DNA of 64,000 nt from Agromyces allii. Lineage in GTDB: Bacteria; Actinomycetota; Actinomycetes; Actinomycetales; Microbacteriaceae. Numbering within the stretch: position 1 is the stretch's first letter; each line of letters starts with the position of its first letter. Location: positions 1-64,000 of the forward strand of contig NZ_WBIN01000011.1 in the NCBI RefSeq assembly GCF_009749385.1, written 5' to 3'. Positions 31,033 to 54,916 of the stretch are shown one piece after another. Position numbers and translations under genes: made by a program. The notes under the pieces were generated by a model, which worked only from the letters and a program-made list of their open reading frames with translations, was not told where the DNA came from and searched no databases.

Positions 31033-32001
31033 TCATGACCGAGCGGATGCCGCAGCTGTGACATCCGGCTCCTGCGACGACGGCTCGACCGCGAGGTCCG
31101 CCGCCCGTCGCACCGCGTCGGCGAACGCCCGCGGCGCCTCCTGCGGGAGGTTGTGCCCGGCGTGCGGCACGCGCCGGTGCTCGTGCGGTCCGACGAATCG
31201 GACACCGGCCGATGCCGCGTCCCGAGCGGGGAAGTTGCCGTCGGCGAGTCCGTCGAGCGTCACCGTGGGAACCGAGATCGACGGCAGCTGCGCCAGCTGC
31301 GCCTCGATCCGCGAGTACTCGGGTGCCCCGTCGACGTGGGCGAGCCGGTGCCGGTACGAGTGGATCACGACCTCGACGAAATCGGGGTTGTCGAATGCCG
31401 ACGCCGCCCGGTGGAGTTCCGCGTCGCCGAAGTCCCAGTCGGGCGAGTTGCGGCGCCAGATCACCTCTGCGACACCGCGCGGATCCCGCGTCAGCCCGAG
31501 CCGGCCGCGCTCGGTGAGGAAGTAGAAGAAGTACCAGAACCCGGCCTCGAGCTCCGGCGCCAGCGGATGCATCGACGCGCGGATGTCCTGGATGAGGTAC
31601 CCGTTGACGGCGACCAGGGCCGTGACCCGCTCTGGCGCGAGGGCGGCGACGACGCAGGCCGCGCGGCCGCCCCAGTCGTAGCCCGCGAGGATCGCCCGCG
31701 GGATCGCGAGCGCGTCCATGAGCTCGACCACGTCCTGCCCGAGGGCGGCCTGCTGCCCGGTGCGAGGTTCCGAGGAACGCAGGAATCTCGTCGCTCCGTG
31801 GCCGCGCAACGAGGGCACGATCACCCGGAAGCCCGCCGAGGCCAGCATCGGCGCCACCTCGACGTAGCTGTGGATGTCGTAGGGGAACCCGTGCAGCAGC
31901 ACGACGGGCTGCCCGTCGGCCGGGCCGGCCTCGAAGTAGGCGACGTCGAGACGGCTCGTCTCGACGTGACGGAGCGGCTGCAGCCGCGGAATCGCGTTCA
32001 T
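31033..32001 (-). CDS. Epoxide-hydrolase-like alpha/beta hydrolase
   Basis: A 322-residue alpha/beta hydrolase of the epoxide hydrolase/haloalkane dehalogenase branch. The HGFP oxyanion motif is at about 37-40 and GYDWGG carries an Asp nucleophile near residue 108. A cap domain follows, and the catalytic His sits in VPHAGHNLPQEAP. Asp at the nucleophile elbow indicates epoxide or C-halogen hydrolysis instead of ester hydrolysis. An ECF41-type promoter (CGTCACA-N16-GGTC) lies 49 nt upstream, with the divergent esterase gene carrying another. Likely sigma-controlled. Confidence 0.83.
   Translation of the reverse strand: MNAIPRLQPLRHVETSRLDVAYFEAGPADGQPVVLLHGFPYDIHSYVEVAPMLASAGFRVIVPSLRGHGATRFLRSSEPRTGQQAALGQDVVELMDALAIPRAILAGYDWGGRAACVVAALAPERVTALVAVNGYLIQDIRASMHPLAPELEAGFWYFFYFLTERGRLGLTRDPRGVAEVIWRRNSPDWDFGDAELHRAASAFDNPDFVEVVIHSYRHRLAHVDGAPEYSRIEAQLAQLPSISVPTVTLDGLADGNFPARDAASAGVRFVGPHEHRRVPHAGHNLPQEAPRAFADAVRRAADLAVEPSSQEPDVTAAASARS
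31037..31063 (-). promoter_or_regulatory. ECF41-type promoter 1 (toward the GNAT gene)
   Basis: Minus strand: TGTCACA (31063-31057), 16 nt, GGTC (31040-31037). It lies at the 3' end of the epoxide-hydrolase-like gene and points at the GNAT gene 144 nt away. Same spacing as the other five sites of this kind. Confidence 0.55.
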
Positions 32002-32049
32002 GGGGTGCTCCTCTCGAAGCGGGCGCGTTGCGCGCCCGTCACGAGCTTC

Positions 32050-32076
32050 GACCGGGCCCGACGCCCGGGTGTGACG
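32050..32076 (-). promoter_or_regulatory. ECF41-type promoter 2 (epoxide-hydrolase-like gene)
   Basis: Minus strand: CGTCACA (32076-32070), 16 nt, GGTC (32053-32050). The downstream sequence GGTCGAAGCTCGTGACG is identical to that at promoter 5 (34466-34482). Located 49 nt before ATG 32001. Confidence 0.72.
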
Positions 32077-32110
32077 AACGGGGTCGACGAAGGCTCGGCA
32101 TGCGGAGCCG

Positions 32111-32137
32111 TGTCACAGCCGGCTCCCCCGCCCGGTC
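32111..32137 (+). promoter_or_regulatory. ECF41-type promoter 3 (esterase gene)
   Basis: TGTCACA (32111-32117), 16 nt, GGTC (32134-32137); 54 nt before ATG 32192. Back-to-back with promoter 2. Confidence 0.75.
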
Positions 32138-32191
32138 AGAGCTGACATCGCCCCGCATTCCGCGGTCGTCGATTCGAGAAGGGAAACCGCC

Positions 32192-32929
32192 ATGTCAGAT
32201 CAGAAGCCGACCGTCGTGCTCGTGCACGGGGCGTTCGCCGAATCCGCCAGCTGGAACGGCGTCATCGAACGCCTCTACGCCGAGGGCGTCACCTCGGTCG
32301 CCGTCGCGAACCCGCTGCGGAGCCTCGCCGGCGACGCCGCCTACGTCCGCGACGTCATCGCGTCGATCGAGGGGCCGGTCGTGCTCGTCGGCCACTCCTA
32401 CGGCGGACTCGTGATCAGCGAGGCGTCCGCCGGCAACGAGCAGGTCGCAGCACTCGTCTACGCCTCCGCGTTCGTGCCCGAGCAGGGCGACAGCGCCTTC
32501 TCCCTCTCGGCGAGCGCACCCGGGTCCACGCTCGGCGAGGCGCTCGACGCGCACCCGATCTCGACCGGCGGCGTCGAGCTCGTCATCCGCCGCTCCGTGT
32601 TCCGCGACCAGTTCGCCGCCGACGTGCCCGTGCAGGTCGCGGGCCTCATGGGCGCGACCCAGCGCCCCGTGACCGAGGCCGCGCTGAAGGACCCCGTGCA
32701 GGCCGAGGCGCCCGGATGGACCGATCGGCCCTCCTGGCACGTGTTCGGCGCCGGGGACCGCAACATCCCCGCCGCGGTGCTGCGAGCGGGCGCCGAGCGG
32801 GCCTCGTCGCTCGGCACCAACGAGATCACCGGCGCCTCGCACGCCGTGAGCGTCTCGCAGCCCGAGGCCGTCGCCTCCACCATCCTCGACGCCGTCGCAC
32901 ACGTCGTCGGCCGCCGGGCGGCCGCCTAG
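32192..32929 (+). CDS. Alpha/beta hydrolase (EstC-like esterase)
   Basis: A 245-residue compact alpha/beta hydrolase. Oxyanion motif VLVHGAFAESASWNGVI starts at about 9. The nucleophile elbow GHSYGG is near 70-75, the acid in VFGAGDRNIP and the His in GASHAVSVSQPE. It matches the EstC/MESB-like clan often found in stress regulons of soil bacteria. A GAGAAGG ribosome site precedes ATG 32192. A TGTCACA-N16-GGTC promoter 54 nt upstream ties it to the ECF41 sigma factor encoded 250 nt downstream. Confidence 0.83.
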   Translation: MSDQKPTVVLVHGAFAESASWNGVIERLYAEGVTSVAVANPLRSLAGDAAYVRDVIASIEGPVVLVGHSYGGLVISEASAGNEQVAALVYASAFVPEQGDSAFSLSASAPGSTLGEALDAHPISTGGVELVIRRSVFRDQFAADVPVQVAGLMGATQRPVTEAALKDPVQAEAPGWTDRPSWHVFGAGDRNIPAAVLRAGAERASSLGTNEITGASHAVSVSQPEAVASTILDAVAHVVGRRAAA

Positions 32930-32952
32930 GCAGCGGTCGCATCGGCGTCGAT

Positions 32953-33009
32953 CGGATGCCGCGGGCAAGCGAGCATCGCGCCCCGCCCGCCCGCGGCATC
33001 CGCTTGCCC
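32953..33009. terminator. Hairpin with two mutually exclusive pairings
   Basis: CGGATGCCGCGGG (32953-32965) pairs perfectly with CCCGCGGCATCCG (32990-33002). GGGCAAGCG (32963-32971) pairs perfectly with CGCTTGCCC (33001-33009). The two stems share bases and cannot form together. Located after the esterase gene and before the sigma-factor promoter; termination is the simplest role. Confidence 0.45.
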
Positions 33010-33094
33010 GACGCGAACGCCCGACCCGAACCGCTCGCCCTGCCCGCGGCATCCGGCATAGCATGCGAGGGTTCGCGAGAGAGTTCGCGGATGT

Positions 33095-33121
33095 CGTCAC
33101 AACCCGGCCTGCTGCCCGGTC
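33095..33121 (+). promoter_or_regulatory. ECF41-type promoter 4 (sigma factor gene)
   Basis: CGTCACA (33095-33101), 16 nt, GGTC (33118-33121); 53 nt before ATG 33175. Its presence before the sigma gene predicts autoregulation. Confidence 0.72.
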
Positions 33122-33174
33122 GTAGCTGCAAGGGGGACGGCTGCGGTCCCATCCGCCGACCGACGGGACACGAC

Positions 33175-34056
33175 ATGGATGCGAACCTCGACGATGCACT
33201 CGCCGGCTTCGAGGCGGTGCGCGGGCGACTCTTCGGCATCGCGTACCGCATGCTCGGCAGCGCCGGCGAGGCCGAGGACATCGTGCAGGACGCCTGGATC
33301 CGCTGGCAGGGAACCGACCGCACGGCCGTCGAGAACGCACCGGCGTTCCTGGCGACGACCACGACCCGGCTCGCGATCAACGCTCTGCAGTCGGCCCGCG
33401 CCCGCCGCGAGACCTACGTCGGCCCGTGGCTGCCGGAGCCGGTCGACACGAGCGCCGACCCGACGCTCGGCGCCGAACGGGCCGAGGCGCTGGGCTTCGC
33501 CGTGCTCGTGATGCTCGAGAAGCTCACGCCGACCGAGCGCGCCGCCTACGTGCTGCGCGAGGCGTTCGCCTACCCCTACGACCAGATCTGCGAGATCGTG
33601 CAGGTCTCCGAGCCCGCCGCCCGGCAGCTCGTCAGCCGCGCCCGCAAGCACCTGGCCGGCGAGCGCCGGCGCGAGGCGACGGCGTTCGAGCAGCGACGGC
33701 TGCTCACCGCGTTCCTGACGGCGGCGAAGACGGGCGACCTCGACGAGCTCGAGCGGCTGTTCGCCGAAGACGTCGTGTCCTATTCCGACGGCGGCGGGGT
33801 CGTGCGCGCGTCGAAGTTCCCGGTCGTGGGGCGCGAGCGGGTCGCGAAGTTCGTGCGCGCGTTCCACACCCACTTCTGGGAGGGCGTGACGATCACCGAG
33901 GCCGACACGAACGGCCAGCCCTCGGTGCTGCTCTCGAAGGACGGCACGACGTTCGCCGTGATCACCCTCGTCGTCGGCCGCGAGGGCATCGACCAGCTGC
34001 TCTGGATGATGAACCCCCACAAGCTCGGGGCCGTGGCCTCCCGTGCCGCCTCGTGA
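33175..34056 (+). CDS. sigJ: ECF41-group RNA polymerase sigma factor with SnoaL-like C-terminal domain
   Basis: A 293-residue ECF sigma factor. Region 2 (about 10-75) contains the AEDIVQDAWIRW segment, and region 4 (105-160) contains PTERAAYVLREAFAYPYDQI. The ECF41 signature WLPEP is at 85-89 in the linker. A fused SnoaL/NTF2-like domain (170-293) carries the DGGG motif at 205-208. In this group the C-terminal domain modulates activity in place of an anti-sigma factor, and no anti-sigma gene is present. The next gene is another SnoaL-like protein overlapping the stop by 14 nt, followed by two epimerase-like genes, matching the usual ECF41 neighbourhood. Confidence 0.88.
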   Translation: MDANLDDALAGFEAVRGRLFGIAYRMLGSAGEAEDIVQDAWIRWQGTDRTAVENAPAFLATTTTRLAINALQSARARRETYVGPWLPEPVDTSADPTLGAERAEALGFAVLVMLEKLTPTERAAYVLREAFAYPYDQICEIVQVSEPAARQLVSRARKHLAGERRREATAFEQRRLLTAFLTAAKTGDLDELERLFAEDVVSYSDGGGVVRASKFPVVGRERVAKFVRAFHTHFWEGVTITEADTNGQPSVLLSKDGTTFAVITLVVGREGIDQLLWMMNPHKLGAVASRAAS

Positions 34057-34414
34057 TCCGGCCGCCCGCCTGCTCGCCGCGCTCGAACACTCGAACGACG
34101 TCGCGCTGGCGAGCGTGCTGAGCCGCGACGTGCGCCTCGTCGTCGACTCCGGCGACGAGCGGGGCGGCGAGCTGCGCGGGCGTGCCGTGATCGCCCGCGA
34201 ACTGCACGACCTCGTGCTGCGACATCCGGATGCCGCGTGGATGCCGGTGCACGTGAACGGCACAGCCGGCCTCGCGCTGCGCCGGTTCGACGGCGAGGTG
34301 GTCGGGGTGCTCGGCATCGAGGGCGAGCCCGCGATCCACCTGCTGTGGCTCTCGACCGTGCCCCGCAAGCTCGCGAGCTGGAACCGACGACGGCCCGATC
34401 CCGGGCTCGACTGA
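34043..34414 (+). CDS. SnoaL/NTF2-like protein coupled to the sigma factor
   Basis: A 123-residue protein starting at GTG 34043, overlapping the end of the sigma gene by 14 nt. The pattern AARLLAALEHSNDVALASVLSRDVRLVVDSG (core LASVLSRDVRLVVDSG), then GRAVIARELHDL and GLALRRFDGEVVGVL, matches an NTF2-like cone similar to the sigma factor's own C-terminal domain. It could bind a ligand or compete with that domain. No catalytic residues are evident. Start codon choice is by frame and overlap. Confidence 0.65.
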   Translation: MPPRDPAARLLAALEHSNDVALASVLSRDVRLVVDSGDERGGELRGRAVIARELHDLVLRHPDAAWMPVHVNGTAGLALRRFDGEVVGVLGIEGEPAIHLLWLSTVPRKLASWNRRRPDPGLD

Positions 34415-34442
34415 CGTCACGGGCCGCCCGTCTCAGTCGACG

Positions 34443-34469
34443 TGTCACAGATGCGGGAGCCATCCGGTC
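34443..34469 (+). promoter_or_regulatory. ECF41-type promoter 5 (first epimerase-like gene)
   Basis: TGTCACA (34443-34449), 16 nt, GGTC (34466-34469), 52 nt before ATG 34522. Confidence 0.78.
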
Positions 34470-34521
34470 GAAGCTCGTGACGGCAGCGGATCCACCGCCG
34501 CCACGACGGAAGGCACCAGTC

Positions 34522-35310
34522 ATGAAGATCGTCGTCATCGGAGGCACGGGCCTCATCGGCTCGAAGGTCGTCGAGCACCTCGTCGAGCACGGCCACGAGG
34601 CGATCGCCGCCTCGCCGAACTCGGGCGTGAACACCATCACGGGCGAGGGCGTCGCCGAGGCGCTCGCCGGCGCGAACGTGGTCGTGGATGTCTCGAACTC
34701 GCCGTCGTTCGCCGACGACGACGTGCTCGCGTTCTTCACCACCTCGACGAACACGCTGCTCGCTGCCGAGCGCGAGGCCGGCGTCGGCCACCACGTGGCC
34801 CTCTCGATCGTCGGAGCCGAGCGCCTGCCGAACAGCGGGTACCTCCGCGCGAAGGTCGCCCAGGAGCAGCTGATCGAGGCATCCGGCCGGCCCTACTCGA
34901 TCGTGCGGGCGACGCAGTTCTACGAGTTCGTCGGGCGCATCGCCGACGAGGCCACCGTCGACGGCATCGCACGGCTGAGCACCGGACTCATGCAGCCGAT
35001 CGCGGCGGCGGACGTCTCGGCCGCCGTCGCGCGCATCGCGGCCGGCGACCCTGTCGACGGCACGGTCGAGATCGGCGGGCCCGAGCGGCTCGGCCAGGAC
35101 GAGTTCGTCCGCGCCGGCCTCGCGGCCAAGGGCGACTCGCGCACCGTGATCGGCGACCCCGAGGCCCTGTACTTCGGCACCGAGCTCACGGGCACCGAGC
35201 TCGTGCCGCTGAGCGCCGACGCGCAGCTCTCGTCGACCACGTTCGCGGAGTGGCTCGCCGCCCAGGCGGCCCAGGCCGTGCCGGCGCCCGGCGCCGCACC
35301 GGTGAGGTAG
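34522..35310 (+). CDS. NAD(P)-binding epimerase-like (atypical SDR, NmrA-type) protein, copy 1
   Basis: A 262-residue atypical short-chain dehydrogenase. The Rossmann motif VVIGGTGLIGSK is at 4-15. SIVGAERLPNSGYLRAKVAQE (core NSGYLRAKVAQE) carries the Tyr/Lys region near 112-122, and YSIVRATQFYEF follows. The catalytic YxxxK is represented by YLRAK. It is under a perfect ECF41-type promoter. Oxidoreductase or epimerase partners are typical of ECF41 loci. Redox substrate unknown. It shares clear similarity with the next gene. Confidence 0.82.
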   Translation: MKIVVIGGTGLIGSKVVEHLVEHGHEAIAASPNSGVNTITGEGVAEALAGANVVVDVSNSPSFADDDVLAFFTTSTNTLLAAEREAGVGHHVALSIVGAERLPNSGYLRAKVAQEQLIEASGRPYSIVRATQFYEFVGRIADEATVDGIARLSTGLMQPIAAADVSAAVARIAAGDPVDGTVEIGGPERLGQDEFVRAGLAAKGDSRTVIGDPEALYFGTELTGTELVPLSADAQLSSTTFAEWLAAQAAQAVPAPGAAPVR

Positions 35311-35316
35311 CCCGCC

Positions 35317-36093
35317 ATGCGCATCGCGGTCATCGGCGGCACCGGCCTCATCGGCACGCGACTCGTCTCGCGCCTGACGTCCGACGGCCACGACGTGGTC
35401 GTCGCATCACGGGCGACCGGCGTGAACTCCTACACCGGCGAGGGTCTCGCGGAGGCCCTCGCCGGGGCGGAGACCCTCGTCGACGTCTCGAACTCCGACT
35501 ACCTCGACGAAGCCGCCGCGAACGAGTTCTTCTACGGCTCGACGCTCAACCTGCTGACGTTCGGCGCGGCGGCGGGCGTCGCCCACCATGTGACGCTCTC
35601 GGTCGTCGGCACCGACCGGCTCGCCAGAACCGAGGGCGGCTACTTCGCCGCGAAGGCGGCGCAGGAGCGGCTCGTCGTGCAGTCGGGCCGACCGTACTCG
35701 ATCGTGCACGCGACCCAGTTCTTCGAGTTCATCGCGAACATCGCGGATGCGGGCACCACCCGCGACATCGTGAAGCTCTCGCGTGCGCTCTTCCAGCCGA
35801 TGGCGGCCGACGACGTCGCCGCCGCGGTGGGCGCGACCGCCGTCGCCCCGCCGCTCGGTCGCATGGTGGAGTTCGCGGGGCCCGAGCAGTTCCGGCTCGA
35901 GGAGCTCGTGCGCCGCCAGTTGCGCCTCCGCAACGACCTGCGCGACGTGGTCGCCGATCCGCTCGCGCGGTACTTCGGCACCGACCTCGCCGAACGCGAA
36001 CTGCTGCCCGGCCCCGACGCGACGATCGCCCCGACGCGCTACGAGGACTGGTTCGCGGCCGGCGGCCGGGCGTACGAGCCCGCGACGGCGTAG
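35317..36093 (+). CDS. NAD(P)-binding epimerase-like (atypical SDR, NmrA-type) protein, copy 2
   Basis: A 258-residue paralogue of the preceding protein: Rossmann motif AVIGGTGLIGTR at 4-15, GVNSYTGEGLAEALAGAETLVDVSNS (core YTGEGLAEALAGAETLVD), TEGGYFAAKAAQERL around 110 (YFAAK) and YSIVHATQFFEF. The 6-nt gap to copy 1 places both in the sigma-controlled operon. Tandem duplication with moderate divergence suggests two related substrates or a heteromer. Confidence 0.82.
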   Translation: MRIAVIGGTGLIGTRLVSRLTSDGHDVVVASRATGVNSYTGEGLAEALAGAETLVDVSNSDYLDEAAANEFFYGSTLNLLTFGAAAGVAHHVTLSVVGTDRLARTEGGYFAAKAAQERLVVQSGRPYSIVHATQFFEFIANIADAGTTRDIVKLSRALFQPMAADDVAAAVGATAVAPPLGRMVEFAGPEQFRLEELVRRQLRLRNDLRDVVADPLARYFGTDLAERELLPGPDATIAPTRYEDWFAAGGRAYEPATA

Positions 36094-36098
36094 CCCGG

Positions 36099-36650
36099 CT
36101 AGGCGAGGTCGGCGAGCGCCCGCTCGACCGCCGCGAGCCGCGCCGCGCGGTCGCCGCTGACCTCGATCACCGCCGTGCTCTCGCCCACGAGATCGGGATC
36201 GTCGACGAGTTCGAGCAGCGCTTCGTCCATCGCCGCGCGCAGTTCGAGATCCTCGTCGTCGCCGACCGGCAGGTCGTCGCGGTGGTGCAGCGGCAGCACC
36301 ACGAGCAGGTCCACGTGCTGCATCGCGGCCGCGGTCAAGTCGAGGCCCCGAGCGAACAGGCTCGACGATCGCCCGGCGCGGCGCAGGGCGTCGAGAGCCG
36401 ACAGGTAGGCGAGGAAGTCGATCGGGCCGCGCTCGGCGATGATCGACCGGCCCGCGGCATCCGTCGTCGGGATCCGACGGGCACTCGACACGAGCTGCTC
36501 GAAGAAGGTCGACGCATCGGGCTCGTCGAGCGCGTCGTCGACGAGCTCGAACGGGTCGCCCAACCGTTCGAACTCGGGGTGCGCGCCGAGGACGTCGTCG
36601 ATGAGGGTGGTCTTTCCGCTGGCGTGGGTGCCCGAGACGACGATGCGCAT
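36099..36650 (-). CDS. AAA-type P-loop ATPase / kinase-like protein
   Basis: A 183-residue P-loop protein. Walker A is GTHASGKTT at 7-15, with a Walker-B-like LLVVLPL at about 115. RSIIAERGPIDFLAYL lies between, in the pattern of AAA_28/NadR-like nucleoside kinase folds. The size and IIAERGPIDF motif suggest a small-molecule kinase more than a molecular motor. Leaderless start supported by TAGAAT 6 nt before ATG 36650. It converges with the epimerase operon with 5 nt between stops. Confidence 0.72.
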   Translation of the reverse strand: MRIVVSGTHASGKTTLIDDVLGAHPEFERLGDPFELVDDALDEPDASTFFEQLVSSARRIPTTDAAGRSIIAERGPIDFLAYLSALDALRRAGRSSSLFARGLDLTAAAMQHVDLLVVLPLHHRDDLPVGDDEDLELRAAMDEALLELVDDPDLVGESTAVIEVSGDRAARLAAVERALADLA

Positions 36651-36656
36651 GCCCGG

Positions 36657-36662
36657 ATTCTA
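36657..36662 (-). promoter_or_regulatory. -10 of the P-loop ATPase gene, leaderless
   Basis: TAGAAT on the minus strand ends 6 nt before ATG 36650. Confidence 0.55.
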
Positions 36663-36765
36663 AGGGGGCATCGGTGACGCGTGGTCGCCCCGCCGTCGGT
36701 GAACACCCGGATGCGGCGGAGCCCGACTCGGCGTACCGTCGTCGCCGTTCCACCGAGGAGGGGCC

Positions 36766-37437
36766 ATGAGCGAGCGCACCGTCGCCGAGCCCGGCGACAT
36801 GGACACGAAGCGGATGACGCGGCGAACCCGCTGGGCGCACGTCGCCGTCGGCGCCGCAGCCGGCCTCGCCTGGGCGGGCGCCCTGCGAGCCTGGATGGCC
36901 GAGCTCAGCGGCGGCATGTCGTCGTTCACGTGGGGCACGTTCGAGGGCGTGCTGCTGCCGGGGCTCGTGGTCGGAGTCGCGTTCGGCTGGGCCTCGAGCG
37001 TCGGCCCCGCTGCGTCCGCTCGTGAACGCCGGATGCTCCGCTGGTGCGCCGCGGCCCCGCTGGCCTTCGCGATCGCACCCGTGCTGCGCCCGGGCGCCCT
37101 CGTCGACCTGCTGACCCAGGGGCTCGGCGGCGGAGCCGTGCTCGTGGCGCTGACCGCGATCGCCGGGGGCTACGCGCTCGGCGGCGGGCGACGGATCTGG
37201 GCCCGGGTGATCTGCGGCGTGCTCGCGCTCGGCGTCTCCGTGGCGGGCGCCCTGTTCGCCGGCCCGCTCGTGCGGGGGCCCGCGCTCGCACTCGACTCGC
37301 CCCGTGGCGCCTGGCTCGCCGTCTTCGACCTCGCCCTGATGCTCGTGCTCATCGCGGCATCGAGCGCTCCGTTCCGGCGGCTCGCCGCGACTGCGGCATC
37401 GGACGGGCGCACGTCGCAGACCGGTCGCGCTTCATAA
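36766..37437 (+). CDS. Membrane protein, unknown function
   Basis: A 223-residue protein with about six hydrophobic helices after a 25-residue polar N-terminus. Short basic loops (ARERRMLRW, GGGRRIW) indicate inside-positive topology. GAGGAGG 5 nt before ATG 36766 is one of the strongest ribosome sites in the window. No functional motif; similar proteins are annotated only as integral membrane proteins. Confidence 0.65.
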   Translation: MSERTVAEPGDMDTKRMTRRTRWAHVAVGAAAGLAWAGALRAWMAELSGGMSSFTWGTFEGVLLPGLVVGVAFGWASSVGPAASARERRMLRWCAAAPLAFAIAPVLRPGALVDLLTQGLGGGAVLVALTAIAGGYALGGGRRIWARVICGVLALGVSVAGALFAGPLVRGPALALDSPRGAWLAVFDLALMLVLIAASSAPFRRLAATAASDGRTSQTGRAS

Positions 37438-37540
37438 CGGTCCGGCGACATCAGTGGCTGCACTGATCCTCGCCGTGCTCGGCCACCCTATTGTGGGCGA
37501 ACCGCTCAACCCCAGCATCGTCACACGAAATCGGAGCCCC

Positions 37541-38272: not shown

Positions 38273-38282
38273 CGCCGGGCTT

Positions 38283-38314
38283 CGACGGGCGGATGTCGCG
38301 GCATCCGTCCGTCG
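38283..38314. terminator. Bidirectional terminator hairpin
   Basis: CGACGGGCGGATG (38283-38295), 6-nt loop, CATCCGTCCGTCG (38302-38314): 13-bp stem with one G-T wobble, 10 nt after the lipoprotein stop and before the end of the convergent cupin gene. Confidence 0.6.
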
Positions 38315-38362
38315 AGAGGGCTCGCCTCCCGGCGTCCGCCCGCGCCCGTCGCTGCCGCGGTG

Positions 38363-38836: not shown

Positions 38837-38842
38837 GCCTCG

Positions 38843-38848
38843 ACGCTA
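38843..38848 (-). promoter_or_regulatory. -10 of the cupin gene, leaderless
   Basis: TAGCGT on the minus strand ends 6 nt before ATG 38836. Confidence 0.5.
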
Positions 38849-38971
38849 TGCCGCCGGGGGCCGACCCGGCCAGTGCTTGCGGAATCGGTTCCGGTGACGC
38901 AGGCCGGCCCGATCGATCGCTCGAAGGAGGCCTCGCTGCGATTCCGGATGCCGCGGGCGGCCGCACGGCGC

Positions 38972-48007: not shown

Positions 48008-48011
48008 GCAG

Positions 48012-49109
48012 ATGATGTCAGCTCCCTCCGTCGACTCGGTCGGGGTGTCCGCGGACACCCCGACCGGGCCCCCGGCCGGCAATGGCGGCTCGGGCTATGC
48101 GCGGTTCGTCCTGCGCCGGCTCGTGGCATCCGTCATCACCCTGTTCGGGATCACGATCGTCTCGTTCGGCATCAGCGTGCTGGTGCCGGTCCGAGCCGAA
48201 ACGGTCAATCTGAGCCAGCAGGCGCTCGCGAACCCGGAGGTGGTCGCCGCCTTCCGAGCGAAGTTCGGGCTCGATCTGCCCATCTGGGAGCAGTACCTGC
48301 GCTATCTCGGCGGGCTCCTGCACGGCGACCTCGGCCTCTCGCAGCAGACCGGCAACCCGGTCTCGACCGACCTCGCGAACTACGCGCCCGCAACCCTCGA
48401 ACTCGTCGTCTACGCGACGCTGATGTCGCTCGTGGCCGGTGTGGTCTTCGGCATCATCGCCGCCGCGATGCGCAACCGCTGGCCCGATCACCTCGCCCGC
48501 ATCGTCTCGCTCGTCGGCGTGAGCCTGCCGACGTACTGGCTCGCGCTGGTCGGATCCACCCTGTTCTTCCGCCAGCTCGGCTGGCTGCCCGGCAGCGGTC
48601 GGCTCGATGCCACCATGATGCCCCCGCCCCGCGTGACCGGGTTCTACACGGTCGACTCGCTGCTCGCCGGCCAGTTCGACGTCTTCCAGTCGGCCGTCGC
48701 CCACCTCGTGCTCCCCGCCTCGATCCTCGCGATCTCGACGCTCGGCATGATCCTGCGCTTCACGCGGAGCTCAGTGCTCGACGGCCTCGGCACCGACGCC
48801 GTGAAGGCGGCGAAGGTCAAGGGACTTCCCACGCACCGGGTGCTCATGCGCTACGGCGTCCGCATGGCCTCGAGCCCGATCATCACCGTCGCGGCCCTGT
48901 CGTTCGGCTTCCTGCTGGCCGCGACCGTCTACGTGGAGCAGATCTTCTCGTGGGGCGGCATGGGCCAGTACGCCTACCGAGCCTCGACGAACCTCGATCT
49001 CTCGGCGATCACCGGCATCTCGGTCGTCGTCGCGGTGATCTTCCTCCTCGTCAACTTCCTCGCCGACCTGCTCGCGTCGGCGTTCGACCCGAGGATCCGA
49101 CTGCAATGA
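48012..49109 (+). CDS. Peptide ABC transporter permease, DppB-type
   Basis: A 365-residue permease with six helices and the BPD_transp_1 EAA region KAAKVKGLPTHRVLMRYGVR. The N-terminal ~30 residues before the first helix are a Ser/Gly/Pro/Asp-rich extension encoded by a perfect 30-bp palindrome (48037-48066). ATG 48012 or ATG 48015 starts the gene. It pairs with the DppC-type permease whose start overlaps its stop by 4 nt. The hairpin may lower permease expression relative to the binding protein. Confidence 0.88.
   Translation: MMSAPSVDSVGVSADTPTGPPAGNGGSGYARFVLRRLVASVITLFGITIVSFGISVLVPVRAETVNLSQQALANPEVVAAFRAKFGLDLPIWEQYLRYLGGLLHGDLGLSQQTGNPVSTDLANYAPATLELVVYATLMSLVAGVVFGIIAAAMRNRWPDHLARIVSLVGVSLPTYWLALVGSTLFFRQLGWLPGSGRLDATMMPPPRVTGFYTVDSLLAGQFDVFQSAVAHLVLPASILAISTLGMILRFTRSSVLDGLGTDAVKAAKVKGLPTHRVLMRYGVRMASSPIITVAALSFGFLLAATVYVEQIFSWGGMGQYAYRASTNLDLSAITGISVVVAVIFLLVNFLADLLASAFDPRIRLQ
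48037..48066. repeat. 30-bp perfect palindrome at the start of dppB-like gene
   Basis: Two 15-nt arms, CGGTCGGGGTGTCCG and its exact complement, with no loop. It lies 30 nt after the binding-protein stop, within codons 9-18 of the permease. Position fits an mRNA-stabilising or attenuating stem that favours excess binding protein. Confidence 0.75.
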
Positions 49110-50005
49110 CCAAGACCGATGTCGTCGCCGCCGTGCGGCAGGCGACCACCTCCGAACTCCACCGCCGTTCCCGACGCGTGCCGGCCTGGATGCGCCGGCC
49201 CGGCACGATCTTCGCCTTCGTCGTGCTCTTCATGTGGCTCGTCGTCATCGCGCTCCCGTTCCTGCGGCCGTACGACCCGCTGGCGACGGTCGGGCCCGCG
49301 CTCGATCCGCCGTCGCCCGATTTCCTGCTCGGCACCGACGCCCTGGGCCGCGACAACCTCAGCCGCACGCTCTCGGGCGCGACCGTGTCGATCCCGAACG
49401 GCATCGCCATCGTGCTCGCCGCCGCCGCGATCGGCACCACGATCGGCCTCGTCGCCGGATTCTTCGGCGGATGGGTCGACGAGGTGCTCATGCGCGTCGC
49501 CGACCTCGTGTTCGCGTTCCCCAGCATCATCCTCGCCATGGCGATCGCCGCAGCCCTCGGGCCGAGCGTGCAGAACGCGGTGATCGCCGCGGCCATCAGC
49601 TGGTGGCCCGCCTATGCGCGAGCCGTGCGCTCGATCGTCCTGGCCATGCGCGAGTCCGAGTTCGTGCTGTCGAACCGCCTGTCGGGTGTCGGCACGTTCC
49701 GTTCGATCGTCGTCGACATGCTGCCCGCCGTGCTCGGTTCGGTGCTCGTGCTCGCGATGCTCGACGTCGGCGCGGCGATCCTCTTCCTCGCCGGCCTGTC
49801 GTTCCTCGGGCTCGGATCGGTGCCGCCGACGCCCGAGTGGGGATCGATGATCTCCGGCGCCGTGCAGTACTTCGACGAATGGTGGCTCGCGGTCGCACCC
49901 GGCCTCGCGATCGTGTCGGTCGTGCTCGCCTTCAACCTCATCGGCGACGCGCTGCGCGACCAGCTCGAGCCGCGACTGCAGGAGATGACGGGAGAACAGC
50001 TGTGA
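49106..50005 (+). CDS. Peptide ABC transporter permease, DppC-type
   Basis: A 299-residue permease. The N-terminal OppC domain has LLGTDALGRDNLSRTLSGA (GTDALGRDNLSR), a hallmark of DppC/OppC, then six helices with EAA-like RESEFVLSNRLSGVGTFRSIV (SNRLSGVGTFRSI) and SFLGLGSVPPTPEWGSMI near the C-terminus. Start ATG 49106 overlaps the dppB-like stop, and its own stop overlaps the next GTG. Inner membrane. Confidence 0.9.
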   Translation: MTKTDVVAAVRQATTSELHRRSRRVPAWMRRPGTIFAFVVLFMWLVVIALPFLRPYDPLATVGPALDPPSPDFLLGTDALGRDNLSRTLSGATVSIPNGIAIVLAAAAIGTTIGLVAGFFGGWVDEVLMRVADLVFAFPSIILAMAIAAALGPSVQNAVIAAAISWWPAYARAVRSIVLAMRESEFVLSNRLSGVGTFRSIVVDMLPAVLGSVLVLAMLDVGAAILFLAGLSFLGLGSVPPTPEWGSMISGAVQYFDEWWLAVAPGLAIVSVVLAFNLIGDALRDQLEPRLQEMTGEQL

Positions 50006-50835
50006 GCATCCTCGAGGTCACCGGCCTCACGGTCACCCGCCCCGACGGCGTCCGGCTCGTCGACGAGGTCACGTTCGACGTCGACCGCGCCGAGGTCGTC
50101 GGCATCGTCGGCGAGTCGGGTTCGGGCAAGACCATGACCGGCATGGCCCTGCTCGGACTCGTGCCCGAACCGCTCGCGGTCGGCGGATCGATCCGGCTGA
50201 ACGGCCGCGAACTCGTGACGCAGTCCCAGCGGCAGTGGCAGCAGACCCGCGGGCGCGAGATCGCGATGGTCCTGCAAGACCCCTCGTCGGCCCTGCATCC
50301 GATGCTGAAGCTCGGCGAGCAACTCACCGACCACCTGCGCAGCCATCTCGGCATGCGCCCGAAGGCGGCGAGGGCCCGAGCCCTCGAACTCCTCGAACAG
50401 GTGCACCTGCCCGACGGCGAGGACATCCTCCGCCGATTCCCGCATCAGCTCTCGGGCGGCATGAAGCAGCGCGTCGCGATCGCGATCGCCCTCGCATGCG
50501 AACCGTCGGTGCTCGTGGCCGACGAGGTGACGACGGCGCTCGATGCGAACATCCGCGTCGGCATCCTGCGACTGCTCGACGAGCTGCGGCGTACGACCGG
50601 CATGGGCATCATGTTCATCACGCACGACCTCGCCATGCTCTCGTCATTCGCCGACCGCGTCAGCGTGTTCCGTCGGGGCGAGATCGTCGAACAGGCCGCG
50701 GCGAACGAGTTGTTCGCGGACCCGCAGCATCCGTACACGCACGAACTGCTCGACGCCGTGCCGAGCATCCCCTGGAAGATGGTCGATCTGGAGCCGGTCG
50801 GCTCCCCCGGCGAAGGGACCCTCGACGATGACTGA
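50002..50835 (+). CDS. Peptide ABC transporter ATPase, DppD-type
   Basis: A 277-residue ABC ATPase. Walker A GESGSGKT is near 37-44, Q-loop VLQDPSSALHP, signature LSGGMKQRVAIAIALA, and Walker B VLVADEVTTALD, in which Val replaces the usual Pro after Glu. The Opp/Dpp C-terminal extension PQHPYTHELLDAVPS is present. GTG 50002 overlaps the previous stop. Works with the DppF-type ATPase as a heterodimer energising uptake. Confidence 0.9.
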   Translation: MSILEVTGLTVTRPDGVRLVDEVTFDVDRAEVVGIVGESGSGKTMTGMALLGLVPEPLAVGGSIRLNGRELVTQSQRQWQQTRGREIAMVLQDPSSALHPMLKLGEQLTDHLRSHLGMRPKAARARALELLEQVHLPDGEDILRRFPHQLSGGMKQRVAIAIALACEPSVLVADEVTTALDANIRVGILRLLDELRRTTGMGIMFITHDLAMLSSFADRVSVFRRGEIVEQAAANELFADPQHPYTHELLDAVPSIPWKMVDLEPVGSPGEGTLDDD

Positions 50836-51637
50836 GTCCACTCCACTGCTGCGCGTCCGCGACGCCGAGGTGACGTACAAGGGACGCGGGCGCTCGTCGA
50901 AGCCCGCCGTTCGCGGTGTGAGCCTCGATGTGCACCCCGGCGAGATCGTCGGCATCGTCGGCGAATCCGGATGCGGCAAGTCGTCGCTGGCGCGCGCCAT
51001 GGTCGGGCTGCAGGCGACCTCGGGCGGCAGCATCGAGTTCCTCGGCGAGCGGGTGCGGCCGTTGCCCATCCGACGCCGTGCCGCCTCGATGATCCCCCTG
51101 CAGATGGTCTTCCAAGATCCGAACGCGTCGCTCAACCCGCGCCGACGGGTCGACGAGCAGATCGGCGAGGTGATCCGGGGCAGCCGCAGGGCCATGCACG
51201 ACCCGGCACGGTCGAAGGCCGAGGTCGACGCGCTCGTGGCGGACGCCCTCGACCGGGTCGGCCTCGACCCGGCGCTGCGGCGGCGCTACCCGCACGCGCT
51301 GTCGGGCGGTCAACGGCAGCGCGTCGCGATCGCGAAGGTGCTCGCCGTCGACACGAAGGTGATCATCGCCGACGAGCCGATCGCGTCGCTCGACGCGTCG
51401 TCGCAGAAGCGCGTCGGCGCCCTGCTGCGCGACCTCGTCGACACCATGGGCATCGGCATGGCGATCATCTCGCACGATCTCGCAGTCGTCGCGTCCATCG
51501 CCGACACCATGGCGGTGATGCGTGCGGGCGAGTTCGTCGAGAAGGGCACGGCCGAGCAACTCTGGACGCACGCGCGCCAGCCGTACACCCGCGAACTGCT
51601 GGGCGCCGTCCCCTCGCTCGTGAGCAGGGCGGCATGA
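50828..51637 (+). CDS. Peptide ABC transporter ATPase, DppF-type
   Basis: A 269-residue partner ATPase. Walker A GESGCGKSS is near 45-53, Q-loop VFQDPNASLNPRRRV, signature LSGGQRQRVAIAKVLA and Walker B IIADEPIASLD. The C-terminal ARQPYTRELLGAVPS is the shortened Opp/Dpp motif; the usual zinc-ligand Cys of full DppF tails are absent. ATG 50828 overlaps the previous gene by 8 nt. Completes a five-part importer. Confidence 0.9.
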   Translation: MTESTPLLRVRDAEVTYKGRGRSSKPAVRGVSLDVHPGEIVGIVGESGCGKSSLARAMVGLQATSGGSIEFLGERVRPLPIRRRAASMIPLQMVFQDPNASLNPRRRVDEQIGEVIRGSRRAMHDPARSKAEVDALVADALDRVGLDPALRRRYPHALSGGQRQRVAIAKVLAVDTKVIIADEPIASLDASSQKRVGALLRDLVDTMGIGMAIISHDLAVVASIADTMAVMRAGEFVEKGTAEQLWTHARQPYTRELLGAVPSLVSRAA

Positions 51638-52056
51638 ACGGCGGGAGCGGCCTGCCCGACGTCGGCCTCCGGCGGATCCCCGCCGACGCCGACGACGACG
51701 CGCTCTCCGCCGACGCGGTCGTCGTGGGCGGCACGGTGTACGCGACGGTCATCCCGACCGACGAGCGCGACGAGCTCGCCGGCTCCTCGATCGCGGCGCA
51801 GGCCGAGCAGGCGATCGCGAACCTCGACGAGGTGCTCCGATCGGCGGGCTCCGACCTCGCGTCGGTCGCGCATCTCACGATCCACCTGACCGACATCGCG
51901 CGCGACCGGGCGGGCTTCAACGCCGTCTACCGCGAGTGGTTCCCCTCCGATCGCGTGCCCGTGCGGTGCGCCGTCGGGGTCGCAGCGCTCGCCCGCCCCG
52001 GCATGCTCGTCGAACTCACCGCGATCGCCGCGGTCACCGCGTCGTCGGTGCCGTGA
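51634..52056 (+). CDS. RidA-family (YjgF/YER057c) protein
   Basis: A 140-residue Rid-superfamily protein. The Arg of the ligand site is in RVPVRCAVGVAALARPGMLVE (VPVRCAVGVAAL) near 109, followed by a Glu-containing last strand. RidA proteins hydrolyse reactive enamine/imine intermediates; others are structural or regulatory. Coupled to the dppF-like gene by ATGA, it ends the transporter operon. Its presence suggests the imported compound is broken down through an enamine or imine. Confidence 0.85.
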   Translation: MNGGSGLPDVGLRRIPADADDDALSADAVVVGGTVYATVIPTDERDELAGSSIAAQAEQAIANLDEVLRSAGSDLASVAHLTIHLTDIARDRAGFNAVYREWFPSDRVPVRCAVGVAALARPGMLVELTAIAAVTASSVP

Positions 52057-52074
52057 TCGCCCCGCTCCGCCTGC

Positions 52075-52737
52075 TCACACGCGTGCAGGCTGACGTTCCT
52101 GACGGCCGACCGGACGGAGGGCGGCGAAGCGCGCTTCGGTCTCGCGCAGCATCCGCTCGCGCTGTTCAGGGGTCTTCTCGGTGATGGCCGCGTAGTTGAC
52201 CCACCGGAGGTTCTTCACGCCGATCTTGCCGAAGGTGCCCTTGAACATGATCTTCGTGAGCGGGTCGCGGAACCACCAGCGGTAGGCCGCGTCTGGGGTG
52301 GTCATGATCGACAGCACGGTGACGCCCCCGAGCCGCGGCATGAGGTTGCGGAACGGGTTGCCCTTCGCGCCGGCGACCTCCTCGAAGACGACGCCCTTGG
52401 TGAGCACCCGGTCGAGGAACCCCTTCGTCGCGGCGGGCATGGCCTCCCACCAGACCGGGAAGGCGAACACCACGTGATCTGCCGCAAGCAGTCTGCGCTG
52501 GTAGTCGGCGACCACGGGGTCGACCACGGACTTCAGGCGCCAGGCGACGAGGTCTTCGCGGCTCATGACCGGGTCGAAGCCGTCGGCGGCGAGGTCGACG
52601 AGGTCGATCTCGTGGCCGGCAAGACGGGCACCGCGGATCGCGGCATCGGCGACGGCGGCCGTGAAGCTGCGTCGGTGCGGCACGTTGTCGGCCGCATCGA
52701 GCGTGTAGGGGTGGTCGAGGACGAACATGATGCGCAT
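52075..52737 (-). CDS. NAD(P)H-quinone oxidoreductase (flavodoxin-like fold, KefF/NQO1 type)
   Basis: A 220-residue FMN/FAD flavoprotein. N-terminal strand IMFVLDHPY and the phosphate loop region HRRSFTAAVADAA lead the fold. FAFPVWWEAMPAATKGFLDRVL (FPVWWEAMPAATKGFLDR) is the signature of NQO1/KefF/MdaB proteins. Reduces quinones or other electrophiles with NAD(P)H in the cytoplasm. Divergent from a MarR regulator with paired operator-like repeats between, so induction by an electrophile is likely. Confidence 0.85.
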   Translation of the reverse strand: MRIMFVLDHPYTLDAADNVPHRRSFTAAVADAAIRGARLAGHEIDLVDLAADGFDPVMSREDLVAWRLKSVVDPVVADYQRRLLAADHVVFAFPVWWEAMPAATKGFLDRVLTKGVVFEEVAGAKGNPFRNLMPRLGGVTVLSIMTTPDAAYRWWFRDPLTKIMFKGTFGKIGVKNLRWVNYAAITEKTPEQRERMLRETEARFAALRPVGRQERQPARV

Positions 52738-52764
52738 GATGGCTCCCGTGTTGGGTGATCGTTG

Positions 52765-52793
52765 GTTGCGTATTCAACGGTTGCATGCGCAAC
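52765..52793. promoter_or_regulatory. Double MarR-type operator
   Basis: Two adjacent inverted repeats with the layout GTTG-N6-CAAC: 52765-52778 and 52780-52793, separated by 1 bp (15-bp period). They lie between the quinone reductase and MarR starts. A TTGACA lies on the minus strand at 52806-52801. Confidence 0.65.
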
Positions 52794-52816
52794 AGTAGCC
52801 TGTCAAACGAAACGGG

Positions 52817-52822
52817 TAGACT
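52817..52822 (+). promoter_or_regulatory. -10 of the marR gene, leaderless
   Basis: TAGACT ends 6 nt before ATG 52829. Confidence 0.5.
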
Positions 52823-52828
52823 CACGGC

Positions 52829-53272
52829 ATGGACGCAGTCGACCTCCCCGATGAGCAGGCGCAGCTCTGGTACCTCATCCGACGCGTGGCCGGGCTGCTC
52901 GACCGCACGGGCGACGCCCTGTTCCGCCGGGAGCTCGACATCTCGCTCGCGCAGTTCCTCGTGCTGAGCGTCGTCGACGCACACCCCGGCCCCCTGAACC
53001 AGCAGGCCATCGCCGACCGCCTCGGCCTCACGAAGGGCACCGTCAGCCGTCAGATCGAGCAGGCGGTCGCGGCCGGCCTCATGACCGCCGAGACCAGCGC
53101 GCACAACCGCCGAGAGAAGGCGCTCGGGCTCACGGCAGCGGGCACCGACCTCGTGCGACGCGGCGATGCCCTCTACGCCGAGGCCCGCACCACGACCCTG
53201 CCGACGGGCGACGCCGACGACGTGCACGCGGCACTGCGCGTGCTCGAGCAGATGAACCGCGCCCTCGGCTGA
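52829..53272 (+). CDS. MarR-family transcriptional regulator
   Basis: A 147-residue MarR winged-helix repressor. The recognition region is LNQQAIADRLGLTKGTVSRQIEQAVAAGLM (core IADRLGLTKGTVSRQI) at about 58-82 and the wing RREKALGLTAAG. A helical dimerisation segment includes LEQMNRALG at the end. Its probable target is the divergent quinone reductase, and it likely represses itself, through the two GTTG-N6-CAAC repeats. -10 TAGACT 6 nt upstream implies a leaderless mRNA. Confidence 0.87.
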   Translation: MDAVDLPDEQAQLWYLIRRVAGLLDRTGDALFRRELDISLAQFLVLSVVDAHPGPLNQQAIADRLGLTKGTVSRQIEQAVAAGLMTAETSAHNRREKALGLTAAGTDLVRRGDALYAEARTTTLPTGDADDVHAALRVLEQMNRALG

Positions 53273-53304
53273 GTCGCCGAGTCGCTGAGTCGCCGAGTCG
53301 CCGA
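53273..53304. repeat. 8-bp tandem repeat between marR and the sigma factor gene
   Basis: Four head-to-tail copies of GTCGCCGA (second copy GTCGCTGA) fill the gap between the marR stop and the stop of the convergent sigma gene. Confidence 0.75.
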
Positions 53305-53305
53305 G

Positions 53306-54199
53306 CTACCGCTCGAGCACGGGCCCCGCGTCGAGCCATTCGAGCTTGCTCGGGTTCGCGAACGAGAAGATGCGCGTGATGCGCCCGCCCTCGACGACCA
53401 CGCTCACGGCGCCCGCGAGCTGCCCGTCGATCTCGGCACGGATGCCGGGCTCGCCGTTCACGTCGACGACCCGCACGACGAACGGGAGCCCGAGCTTCGC
53501 GATGCCGCCGACGAGGTAGCGCGCGATCTTGTCTGCGCCGACGATGGGTCGCACCGCGGCACCGCGGACCTGTCCGCCGCCGTCGGCGACCGACACCACG
53601 TCGGGCGCGAGCACGTCCATGAGCGCCTGCACGTCGCCCGAGTTCACCGCGGCGGCGAACCTCGCCACGACCTCCTCCTGCTCGGCCCGGTCGACGATCA
53701 CGCGCGGACGCCGCGCCGCCACGTGCTCCTTGGCGCGATGCGCGATCTGGCGCACCGCAGCAGGGGTCTTGCCCACGGCATCCGCGATCTCGTCGTAGGG
53801 CACGTCGAACACCTCGCGCAGTACGAACACGGCCCGCTCGGCCGGCCCCAGCGTCTCGAGCACCGTCAGCATCGCGATCGACACGCTCTCGGCGAGCTCG
53901 ACGTCGGCCGCGACATCCGGCCCCGTGAACAGCGGCTCGGGCAGCCACTCGCCGACGTACTGCTCACGGCGCCGCGCCTGAGTGCGGATCTGGTTCAGCG
54001 CCTGGCGCGTGACGATGCGCACGAGGTACGCACGCGGATCGCGCACTTGCGCGTGGTCGACCTCGTTCCAGCGCAGCCACGACTCCTGCAGCACGTCCTC
54101 GGCGTCGACGGCCGACCCGAGCATCTCGTACGCGACCGTGAAGAGCAGGTTGCGGTGCACGACGAACGCATCGGCGTCGGCACCGGTGCTGCGGCTCAT
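53306..54199 (-). CDS. sigJ: Second ECF41-group sigma factor with SnoaL-like C-terminal domain
   Basis: A 297-residue ECF41 sigma factor. Region 2 has AEDVLQESWLRW, linker motif WLPEP is at 85-89, and region 4 has PAERAVFVLREVFDVPYDEIADAVG. The SnoaL-like domain has DGGG at 206-209. Its ATG overlaps the stop of the upstream carboxymuconolactone-decarboxylase-like gene by 4 nt, the textbook ECF41 pairing. The shared promoter is TGTCACA-N16-TGTC at 54916-54890. About the same length as the other ECF41 protein in the window and probably with overlapping promoter recognition. Confidence 0.88.
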   Translation of the reverse strand: MSRSTGADADAFVVHRNLLFTVAYEMLGSAVDAEDVLQESWLRWNEVDHAQVRDPRAYLVRIVTRQALNQIRTQARRREQYVGEWLPEPLFTGPDVAADVELAESVSIAMLTVLETLGPAERAVFVLREVFDVPYDEIADAVGKTPAAVRQIAHRAKEHVAARRPRVIVDRAEQEEVVARFAAAVNSGDVQALMDVLAPDVVSVADGGGQVRGAAVRPIVGADKIARYLVGGIAKLGLPFVVRVVDVNGEPGIRAEIDGQLAGAVSVVVEGGRITRIFSFANPSKLEWLDAGPVLER

Positions 54200-54828
54200 G
54201 CCGTCGAGCCTACGACCGCCGTGGGAGCGCCCGTCGGCTCGGCGACCGCCGTGCCGGCTCCCCGCTCGACGAGCGGCGGCATCTCGCACGCCTCGGCGAA
54301 GCCGTCGGAATGGATGCCCAGCGCGATGTTCATGCGCGACGACATGTTCATGAACCCGATCTTCGCGGCCAGCTCGACGAGGGCGGCCGGGCCGAGCTCG
54401 GCGAGCAGGGCGGCCGAAAGCTCGTCGGTGACGGCCGGCGGCGTCTGGCTCATCGCCTCGGCGTACTCCATGACGTTGCGCTCGAGGGGCGTGAAGACGG
54501 TCGCCTCGCGCCAGTTCGGCACCTGTCGCGCCTTCTCGAGGTCGAGGCCCTCATTGCGCGACTTGTAGTAGTTGAAGTCGAGGCACCAGCTGCAGCCGAT
54601 GTGTGCGGCCGTCGCCATGACCGCCAAGGTCGCCAGGTCGCGGTCGAGCTCGTGCAGGCCCTCGACCTTGCGCCCGATGCCCATCGATGCCCGCATCAGG
54701 GCCGGGTGGTGCGCGAGCACGCCCATCGAGTCGGGCACCGTGCCGAGCATGCGGCGTGCCGCGATCTTCACCACCCCGCCGAACACTCCGGTGAGCTCGG
54801 TCGGCGGGATGCGGGTCTGGGTGGTCAT
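54196..54828 (-). CDS. Carboxymuconolactone decarboxylase (AhpD-like) family protein
   Basis: A 210-residue CMD/AhpD-type protein. The redox-like CSWC is at 79-82, followed by the helix LDFNYYKSRNEGLD, the motif of alkylhydroperoxidase-like members. Likely a thiol-dependent peroxidase or oxidoreductase; true lactone decarboxylase activity is unlikely with CxxC. I prefer ATG 54828 over ATG 54831 because AGGAGG then sits 5 nt upstream. First gene of the ECF41 operon, ahead of its sigma factor. Confidence 0.85.
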   Translation of the reverse strand: MTTQTRIPPTELTGVFGGVVKIAARRMLGTVPDSMGVLAHHPALMRASMGIGRKVEGLHELDRDLATLAVMATAAHIGCSWCLDFNYYKSRNEGLDLEKARQVPNWREATVFTPLERNVMEYAEAMSQTPPAVTDELSAALLAELGPAALVELAAKIGFMNMSSRMNIALGIHSDGFAEACEMPPLVERGAGTAVAEPTGAPTAVVGSTA

Positions 54829-54889
54829 CATGTCCTCCTGCGTTGCTCGACGGTCCGGCTTCGGTATCCGGATGGCCCGTCGGCATGAA

Positions 54890-54916
54890 GACACCGGCCG
54901 GCGCTCGCGTGTGACA
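54890..54916 (-). promoter_or_regulatory. ECF41-type promoter 6 (CMD-sigma operon)
   Basis: Minus strand: TGTCACA (54916-54910), 16 nt, TGTC (54893-54890), 61 nt before ATG 54828. Same -35 and spacing as the five sites at 31037-34469, 20 kb away. Confidence 0.75.

Follow-up and report, generated by a model that had tools for sequence, protein, structure and literature searches.

ECF41 sigma factors are described in the literature cited here as mostly one-target regulators without a separate partner regulator. They generally control one gene or operon (PMC3426412), RpoE9 of S. meliloti has one target (PMC6180224), and the proteins carry a linker motif, YVGPWLPEP, and a distal motif, NPDKL (PMC7730460). 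An ECF41 sigma acting on lateral flagella in Azospirillum (Dubey 2020, as cited in PMC8999054, which also cites Goutam 2017 on SigJ) suggests that the single-target feature may not be general and that multi-gene effects are not unheard of. The present study analyzes a stretch of 64,000 nucleotides of the genome of the soil bacterium Agromyces allii (the window; positions 1-64,000 of NZ_WBIN01000011.1 in assembly GCF_009749385.1, 4.36 Mb, our genome G000) that carries two ECF41 sigma genes, sigma1 (33175-34056, +) and sigma2 (53306-54199, -), and six promoters of ECF41 type, with a third, truncated sigma gene on another contig (C15:171422-172081). The patterns detected, all of them in sequence, are consistent with two ECF41 regulons with different -10 elements, in which sigma1 would serve several targets and sigma2 would drive its own carboxymuconolactone decarboxylase (CMD) operon; we give this reading a probability of roughly 0.8.

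A preliminary description of the window had listed six sites of ECF41 type, and all were recovered where it had placed them, each with the -35, GTC in the -10 and a gap of exactly 16 nt between NGTCACA and NGTC. Five have a -10 of (C/T)CGGTC. Those of the CCGGTC type precede an alpha/beta hydrolase gene (promoter 32050-32076, -; gene 31033-32001, -; Pfam Abhydrolase_1, with no NCBIfam cut-off reached, “epoxide-hydrolase-like” being the label of the preliminary description), a divergently transcribed, esterase-like alpha/beta hydrolase gene (32111-32137, +; gene 32192-32929, +; Abhydrolase_6), sigma1 itself (33095-33121, +), as expected if that gene is self-regulated as first proposed, and an epimerase-like pair (34443-34469, +) that Pfam describes as an NAD(P)-binding epimerase/NmrA-like protein, epi1 (34522-35310, +), and an NAD-binding epimerase-like protein, epi2 (35317-36093, +). 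The fifth, TGTCACA-N16-GGTC with a -10 of TCGGTC (31037-31063, -), precedes a structured RNA and a GNAT-type acetyltransferase gene (30441-30893, -; PF14542) and is conserved in relatives. The sixth (54890-54916, -), before the operon of a CMD family protein (54196-54828, -; PF02627) and sigma2, is of another class, CGGTGTC. Measured to the starts predicted by a codon-based gene caller written for the present analysis, the -10 lies 48, 54, 53, 52 and 61 nt upstream at five sites and 143 nt upstream of the GNAT gene; the 61 nt before CMD becomes 58 if that gene starts at 54831, as it may.

The pattern GTCACA-N17-GTC occurs six times in the 64 kb, and dinucleotide shuffles gave a mean of 0.80 and at most 5, none of 100 reaching six; the motif was picked after reading, which makes the shuffle figure by itself too favourable, and conservation in relatives is the real test. 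A genome-wide search, as the preliminary description had suggested, returned 18 matches to the loose pattern and 1 to a reversed control, with six of the 18 crowded into 24 kb of the window. The remaining 12 comprise six inside called genes, five intergenic matches followed by a called gene at no more than 300 nt, among them the site at the third sigma, and one intergenic match without such a gene. The narrower GTCACA-N15-CGGTC occurs six times in the genome (reversed control, 1), five times at 31.0-34.5 kb of the window and once on contig C15.

In relatives the two -10 classes go with the two sigma subfamilies. The set comprised 110 ECF41-like or neighbouring sigma rows from 60 relatives, and in scans around sigma genes of relatives that also allowed spacers of 15 and 17 nt, 134 of 134 motifs had 16 nt. 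All 22 sigma1-type rows with a nearby motif had GGTC only (two of 24 rows had no motif), and all 24 such sigma2-type rows had TGTC only (four of 28 had none; two of the 24, both from locus L162, are pieces of one gene). Among the other sigmas 34 had CGTC, 18 had no motif and six had GGTC or TGTC. Three of these six (L254, L273, L276) adjoin a sigma2 locus and have a CGTC of their own, L218 in genome G020 adjoins a sigma1 gene and encodes a sigma with its own SnoaL_2 domain (Pfam), L229 in G007 is a sigma beside epi1-epi2 with a sigma1-type promoter, and the motif at L280 is unexplained. Sigma2-subfamily loci of relatives read TGTCACA-N16-TGTC with a -10 of GGTGTC. The bases before the common GTC are mostly CCG for the sigma1 type (72 sites, picked by GGTC), always GGT for the sigma2 type (22 sites) and C for the others (48 sites). 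The ECF sigmas at L229 and L218, both beside CCGGTC promoters, are about 31% identical to sigma2. The C class also has a site in the A. allii genome, TGTCACA-N16-CGTC on contig C15 (94238-94263, -; L007), 54 nt before a gene whose N-terminus looks SnoaL-like by eye; despite this site, no ECF41 sigma of the C class was found in this genome.

The base before GTC follows the sigma tree and a residue of the sigma. The tree was built by a quick method, with the Shimodaira-Hasegawa-like approximate likelihood ratio test (SH-aLRT) as its only branch support, from 107 of the 110 sigmas; one shorter than 200 aa was dropped, as were two neighbours of 31% identity that carry a SnoaL_2 domain themselves. 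Eighty sigmas have one promoter class (37 C, 22 T, 21 G) and 27 have none or, once, two; on the tree the base of the 80 requires two state changes, and with three states fewer would not be possible. Residue 69, in region 2.4, is a D throughout the C class (37 of 37 sigmas) and an N throughout the G class (21 of 21) and the T class (22 of 22), and is the only listed column that fully parts C from both G and T. In these sigmas a Q or D at position 72 is confined to the G class, and a Q at position 66 to the T class; sigma1 has N69 and Q72, sigma2 has Q66, N69 and R72. A wider check set of 76 sigma rows at 80 loci, from other Actinobacteria and three near relatives, contained 45 rows with a motif, of which 43 combine N69 with G or T, one D69 with C and one T69 with T. 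Residue 69 presumably corresponds to N92 of SigH. The open complex of SigH shows N92 in contact with the pair at -11 (PMC6411747). That the -10 base tracks both the tree and a region 2.4 residue argues for insulation of the two systems, not for cross-talk: each sigma would bind its own promoter class, and the classes would be functionally separate.

The sigma1 class is also the one that spreads over several targets. Among 37 sampled Agromyces genomes, GTCACA-N15-CGGTC occurs at 82 sites in the 17 with sigma1 and at 14 in the 20 without (Mann-Whitney p 5e-7; reversed controls 3 and 5). Orthologs of the targets fall in the sigma1-positive genomes in 13 of 13 cases for GNAT (cut-off at least 50% identity), 12 of 12 for the esterase (70%), 8 of 8 for hydrolase 31033 (70%), 7 of 7 for a short-chain dehydrogenase/reductase (SDR; E <1e-60) and 8 of 9 for a second, Abhydrolase_3 esterase (69%). 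The exact motif stands before 11 of the 12 esterases, 4 of the 8 hydrolases, 7 of 9 second esterases (counted at a 70% cut-off, with one from G049 in and G001 out), 9 of the 13 GNAT genes and 2 of the 7 SDR genes, and all 33 of these sites are GGTC. Before the esterase orthologs the site lies 48-59 nt upstream and recurs in rearranged loci; the twelfth ortholog was called as part of a merged gene, and a site lies 63 nt upstream of where it probably starts. Hydrolase paralogs of 45-53% identity had the site in 0 of 13 cases, esterase places below 70% identity in 1 of 18 examined (a TTGTC in G030; two of 32 esterase places, without a locus, were left out), and rows from sigma1-negative genomes in 0 of 9.

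Footprinting of 40 regions of relatives likewise placed a CGGTC promoter before the esterase, hydrolase 31033, the Abhydrolase_3 esterase, the SDR, epimerase, GNAT and sigma genes. Gene order varies among these regions, and some members stand alone, away from the sigma gene, as do an SDR (L220) and an esterase (L221) in G023 and an SDR (L227) and a GNAT gene (L228) in G022; a Leifsonia locus (L030) carries most of the set. The earlier proposals that hydrolases are among the targets and that the regulon exceeds the usual single target are thus borne out by conserved promoters before several ortholog sets, and the GNAT site, which had been entered as a possibility, can be placed among them on the strength of its conservation in relatives.

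At 143 nt, that GNAT promoter might have been taken as spurious, which we reject: distances of 135-156 nt recur in 7 of 13 GNAT orthologs and the gap holds a conserved RNA. About 110 nt between promoter and start are conserved in seven genomes, and two more copies come from Leifsonia and from another position in G004. A covariance model from these nine found further copies in Pseudonocardia alaniniphila (104 bits), G331 and G011, for 12 genomes or copies overall; under strict filters, 6 of the 396 genomes sampled from the order had a match. In the window the model match lies at 30903-31027 (-), between promoter and GNAT start, and it covaries and belongs to no Rfam family. Rfam gave three matches up to E 10, all far below the gathering score, one of which (mir-221, E 0.68) overlaps the leader, and no match at four loci with other copies; on phages, plasmids and viral contigs there was no match to the leader, the viral scan being for one exact 26-base pattern.

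The leader may be a functional RNA that is made from the ECF41 promoter; that it is instead conserved as a DNA element, or encodes a short peptide, we think unlikely. Over the 12 sequences 98.0% of 346 cells pair, both sides have changed in five pairs (reached by 3 of 500 shuffles) and in 11 cells (0 of 500), and the covariation score was reached by 0 of 500; slid controls paired at 30-45%, a comparison that favours the structure since it was derived from the same sequences. In 11 of the 12 copies the core follows the promoter at a distance of 38-42 nt, and loop lengths differ by steps that would shift any reading frame, on which ground a short peptide in the leader was rejected. A DNA element or coding sequence would sit well with the very conserved primary sequence, with a number of further pair types that 430 of 500 shuffles reach, and with folding energies of five copies that are ordinary for their composition (z from -1.78 to +0.86); since these are not significant, thermodynamic stability was not used as support for the RNA. 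The copies are not bound to one gene. One in G004 (L223:3569-3698, +) has the promoter and no gene behind it, the GNAT gene of that genome having a short leader; the Pseudonocardia copy (L050:9650-9772, -) precedes an FAD-binding oxidoreductase; that of G011, where no sigma1 was found, has neither such a promoter nor a gene directly behind it; and at the GNAT orthologs of five other sigma1-positive genomes (G002, G010, G015, G027, G030) the leader is absent. It is possible, though we put it forward only tentatively, that an ECF41 sigma transcribes the leader as a structured RNA of a new class that works independently of the gene behind it, such as a small RNA or a movable riboswitch, within a regulon that has a built-in and a free-standing SnoaL inhibitor and a naturally released, truncated third sigma.

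Several observations weigh against the reading of two regulons. The first 110 residues contain 49 listed class-separating columns, as kinship alone predicts, residue 69 was favoured partly for its place in region 2.4, and two state changes mean that few independent events lie behind its association with the -10 base. Residue 72, a Q or D in G-class sigmas of Agromyces, is highly variable in the wider check set. First-type sigmas of other genera adjoin CCTGTC promoters, so that a T alone does not exclude sigma1 and weak cross-recognition may occur. Of the eight hydrolase orthologs one has a GTCACG variant, two without a site of their own stand behind epi2 and one could not be judged; three GNAT orthologs have the GTCACG variant only, and no site precedes the GNAT gene of G010 or the second esterase of G036 and of G049. 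G007 has a CCGGTC promoter before epi1-epi2, yet no sigma1 was found there, and the case for the SDR leans mostly on operon position, in a search that scored 43 candidates per genome.

The preliminary description had seen in the six promoters one regulon spanning both loci, with possible cross-talk between the two sigmas. Such sharing is suggested by the same -35 and spacing at all six sites, by those T-type sites beside first-type sigmas and by two loci (L052, L054) with G and T sites near one sigma. It is nevertheless quite improbable, and as the principal reading it was rejected by the -10 class test in relatives: the sixth site, CGGTGTC, goes with the sigma2 subfamily there, the Agromyces classes diverge at three -10 positions (CCG versus GGT), no row with a motif in either subfamily has a class other than its own, and GGTC stands at every exact site upstream of the target orthologs that passed the identity cut-offs. 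That the sites arose by chance or as a compositional repeat in a GC-rich genome is negligibly probable and was rejected, for although the motif was chosen after reading, half of the 12 other genome matches fall inside called genes and sigma1-negative Agromyces genomes still yield 14 matches, the shuffled and reversed-pattern controls and the recurring distances before orthologs in rearranged loci speak against it.

What we observe, then, are promoter positions, their conservation, their co-occurrence with sigma1, the covariation of -10 base and region 2.4 residue, and covariation in the leader; the mechanism that we propose beside them has two separate parts. Under the two-regulon reading, sigma1 would direct RNA polymerase to NGTCACA-N16-GGTC, with a first base of mostly C or T and a -10 of usually CCGGTC, and would turn on itself, an overlapping free-standing SnoaL partner, the two epimerase-like enzymes, two alpha/beta hydrolases, the GNAT protein behind its structured leader and, on another contig, the operon of the Abhydrolase_3 esterase and SDR. 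Sigma2 would use its own -10, CGGTGTC, and drive the CMD operon.

Both proteins have sigma-70 regions 2 and 4 and a C-terminal SnoaL-like domain (Pfam SnoaL_2), and both score above the NCBIfam cut-offs of TIGR02957 and PRK09636 SigJ. The ECF41 motifs are present as close variants, YVGPWLPEP and NPHKL in sigma1 and YVGEWLPEP and NPSKL in sigma2, and each gene has a typical ECF41 neighbour, the epimerase-like pair by sigma1 and CMD by sigma2. Their promoters match ECF41 in -35 and spacing, with a varying first base for sigma1, and have G or T, not C, before GTC. Sigma2 would have the usual single target, given one GGTGTC-type site among the 18 genome matches in a search with the 16-nt spacer only, and sigma1, judged on sequence evidence only, would not. 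A Flavodoxin_2 oxidoreductase and a divergent MarR regulator (52075-53272 of the window) adjoin the sigma2 gene. Locus L209 of G004 holds two convergent sigma1-type genes, 81% and 60% identical to sigma1, within one regulon cluster.

The third sigma belongs to a further ECF41-like locus outside the window (L028:5423-6082, on the - strand of L028). Its 219 aa have Pfam sigma regions only and align to sigma1 up to residue 198, so that of the SnoaL_2 region called by Pfam in sigma1 (178-236) roughly the first 20 residues are left. It has SVGQEFEARP in place of YVGPWLPEP and falls in the sigma1 clade on a long branch; lacking the ECF41 SnoaL domain and linker, it was not classed as a full ECF41. 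No SnoaL remnant was recognised by eye in three frames behind the gene. A relative in G019 is 73% identical, 209 aa long and also decayed in its linker. Both genes lie downstream of a regulator with BTAD and NB-ARC domains on the same strand, at 112 nt here and 77 nt in G019, which we take to be SARP-type. The sixth CGGTC promoter of the genome lies 91 nt past the stop of the third sigma and 70 nt before the Abhydrolase_3 esterase, which the SDR follows. Truncations of ECF41 proteins at residues 204 (about 20-fold) and 206 (about 120-fold) were highly active, one at 192 was less active and those at 167 and 169 were inactive (PMC3426412). The natural end of the third sigma would fall near the active truncation point of these laboratory constructs, and the protein may be active without an inhibitory domain.

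A free-standing homolog of the ECF41 SnoaL regulatory domain (34043-34414, +; 123 aa) is encoded directly behind sigma1, overlapping the end of that gene, with its stop codon, by 14 nt. It has no Pfam match at cut-off, and relatives of it occur behind sigma1 genes in 16 further regions; in the wider check set it directly follows sigma1-like genes at 11 of 80 loci, of which nine are outside Agromyces. Compared by profile with the C-terminal domains of ECF41 sigmas, it gave probabilities of 95.4 (sigma1 type), 97.5 (sigma2 type) and 99.2 (others, E 6e-20), and in the C-terminal W....PxKL..W the W, P, K, L and W are invariant in 12 sequences. The predicted structure is NTF2-like (predicted local distance difference test score, pLDDT, 88.6) and matches 159 solved chains at E <=0.001, the top one being a designed NTF2-like protein, with SigG1 (7qh5) at rank 3 and SigJ at rank 46. 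A role as trans-acting inhibitor or ligand sensor is likely, and the protein would act in trans on sigma1.

These findings have several implications. A conserved enzyme regulon of several loci offers clues to the stimulus of the system; with a free-standing SnoaL gene and a truncated sigma, natural parts are at hand for testing the inhibition model; sister sigmas that share one -35 could stay apart by a simple, testable rule, in which the -10 base goes with a region 2.4 residue; and the leader RNA, which we think is probably made and functional, is a new lead of its own.

Compared with known systems, the locus is closest to Ecf41Bli and Ecf41Rsp, which likewise have a SnoaL-like C-terminal extension, partner genes of the CMD, oxidoreductase and epimerase (COE) types, and a common TGTCACA -35, 16-nt spacer and GTC in the -10 (PMC3426412), and sigma2 with its CMD operon is the classical ECF41 arrangement. 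The consensus -10 there is CGTC, in contrast to GGTC or TGTC here, although the B. licheniformis ydfG promoter likewise departs from C (PMC3426412, Table 5). Whereas the published cases (PMC3426412; RpoE9, PMC6180224) have one target, sigma1 would have several, and unlike Ecf41Bli and Ecf41Rsp it has an overlapping free-standing SnoaL gene. SigJ of M. tuberculosis (PDB 5xe7) is the best solved sequence match to sigma1 (E 2.1e-44) and a fold match of the SnoaL model (TM-score 0.65 by query length), but the alignment gives it D and R where sigma1 has N69 and Q72. For the free-standing protein a parallel is the ECF56 pair SigG1-RsfG of Streptomyces tsukubaensis, SigG1 being the third fold match; RsfG was shown to bind its sigma (PMC7730460), whereas the A. 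allii protein, homologous to the C-terminal domain of ECF41 factors, is a predicted partner. Finally, the third sigma ends in about the same part as Ecf41Bli-204 and Ecf41Rsp-206 (PMC3426412), without most of the SnoaL domain, but unlike those laboratory truncations it occurs naturally, with a relative just as short in another species, and its linker motif is decayed.

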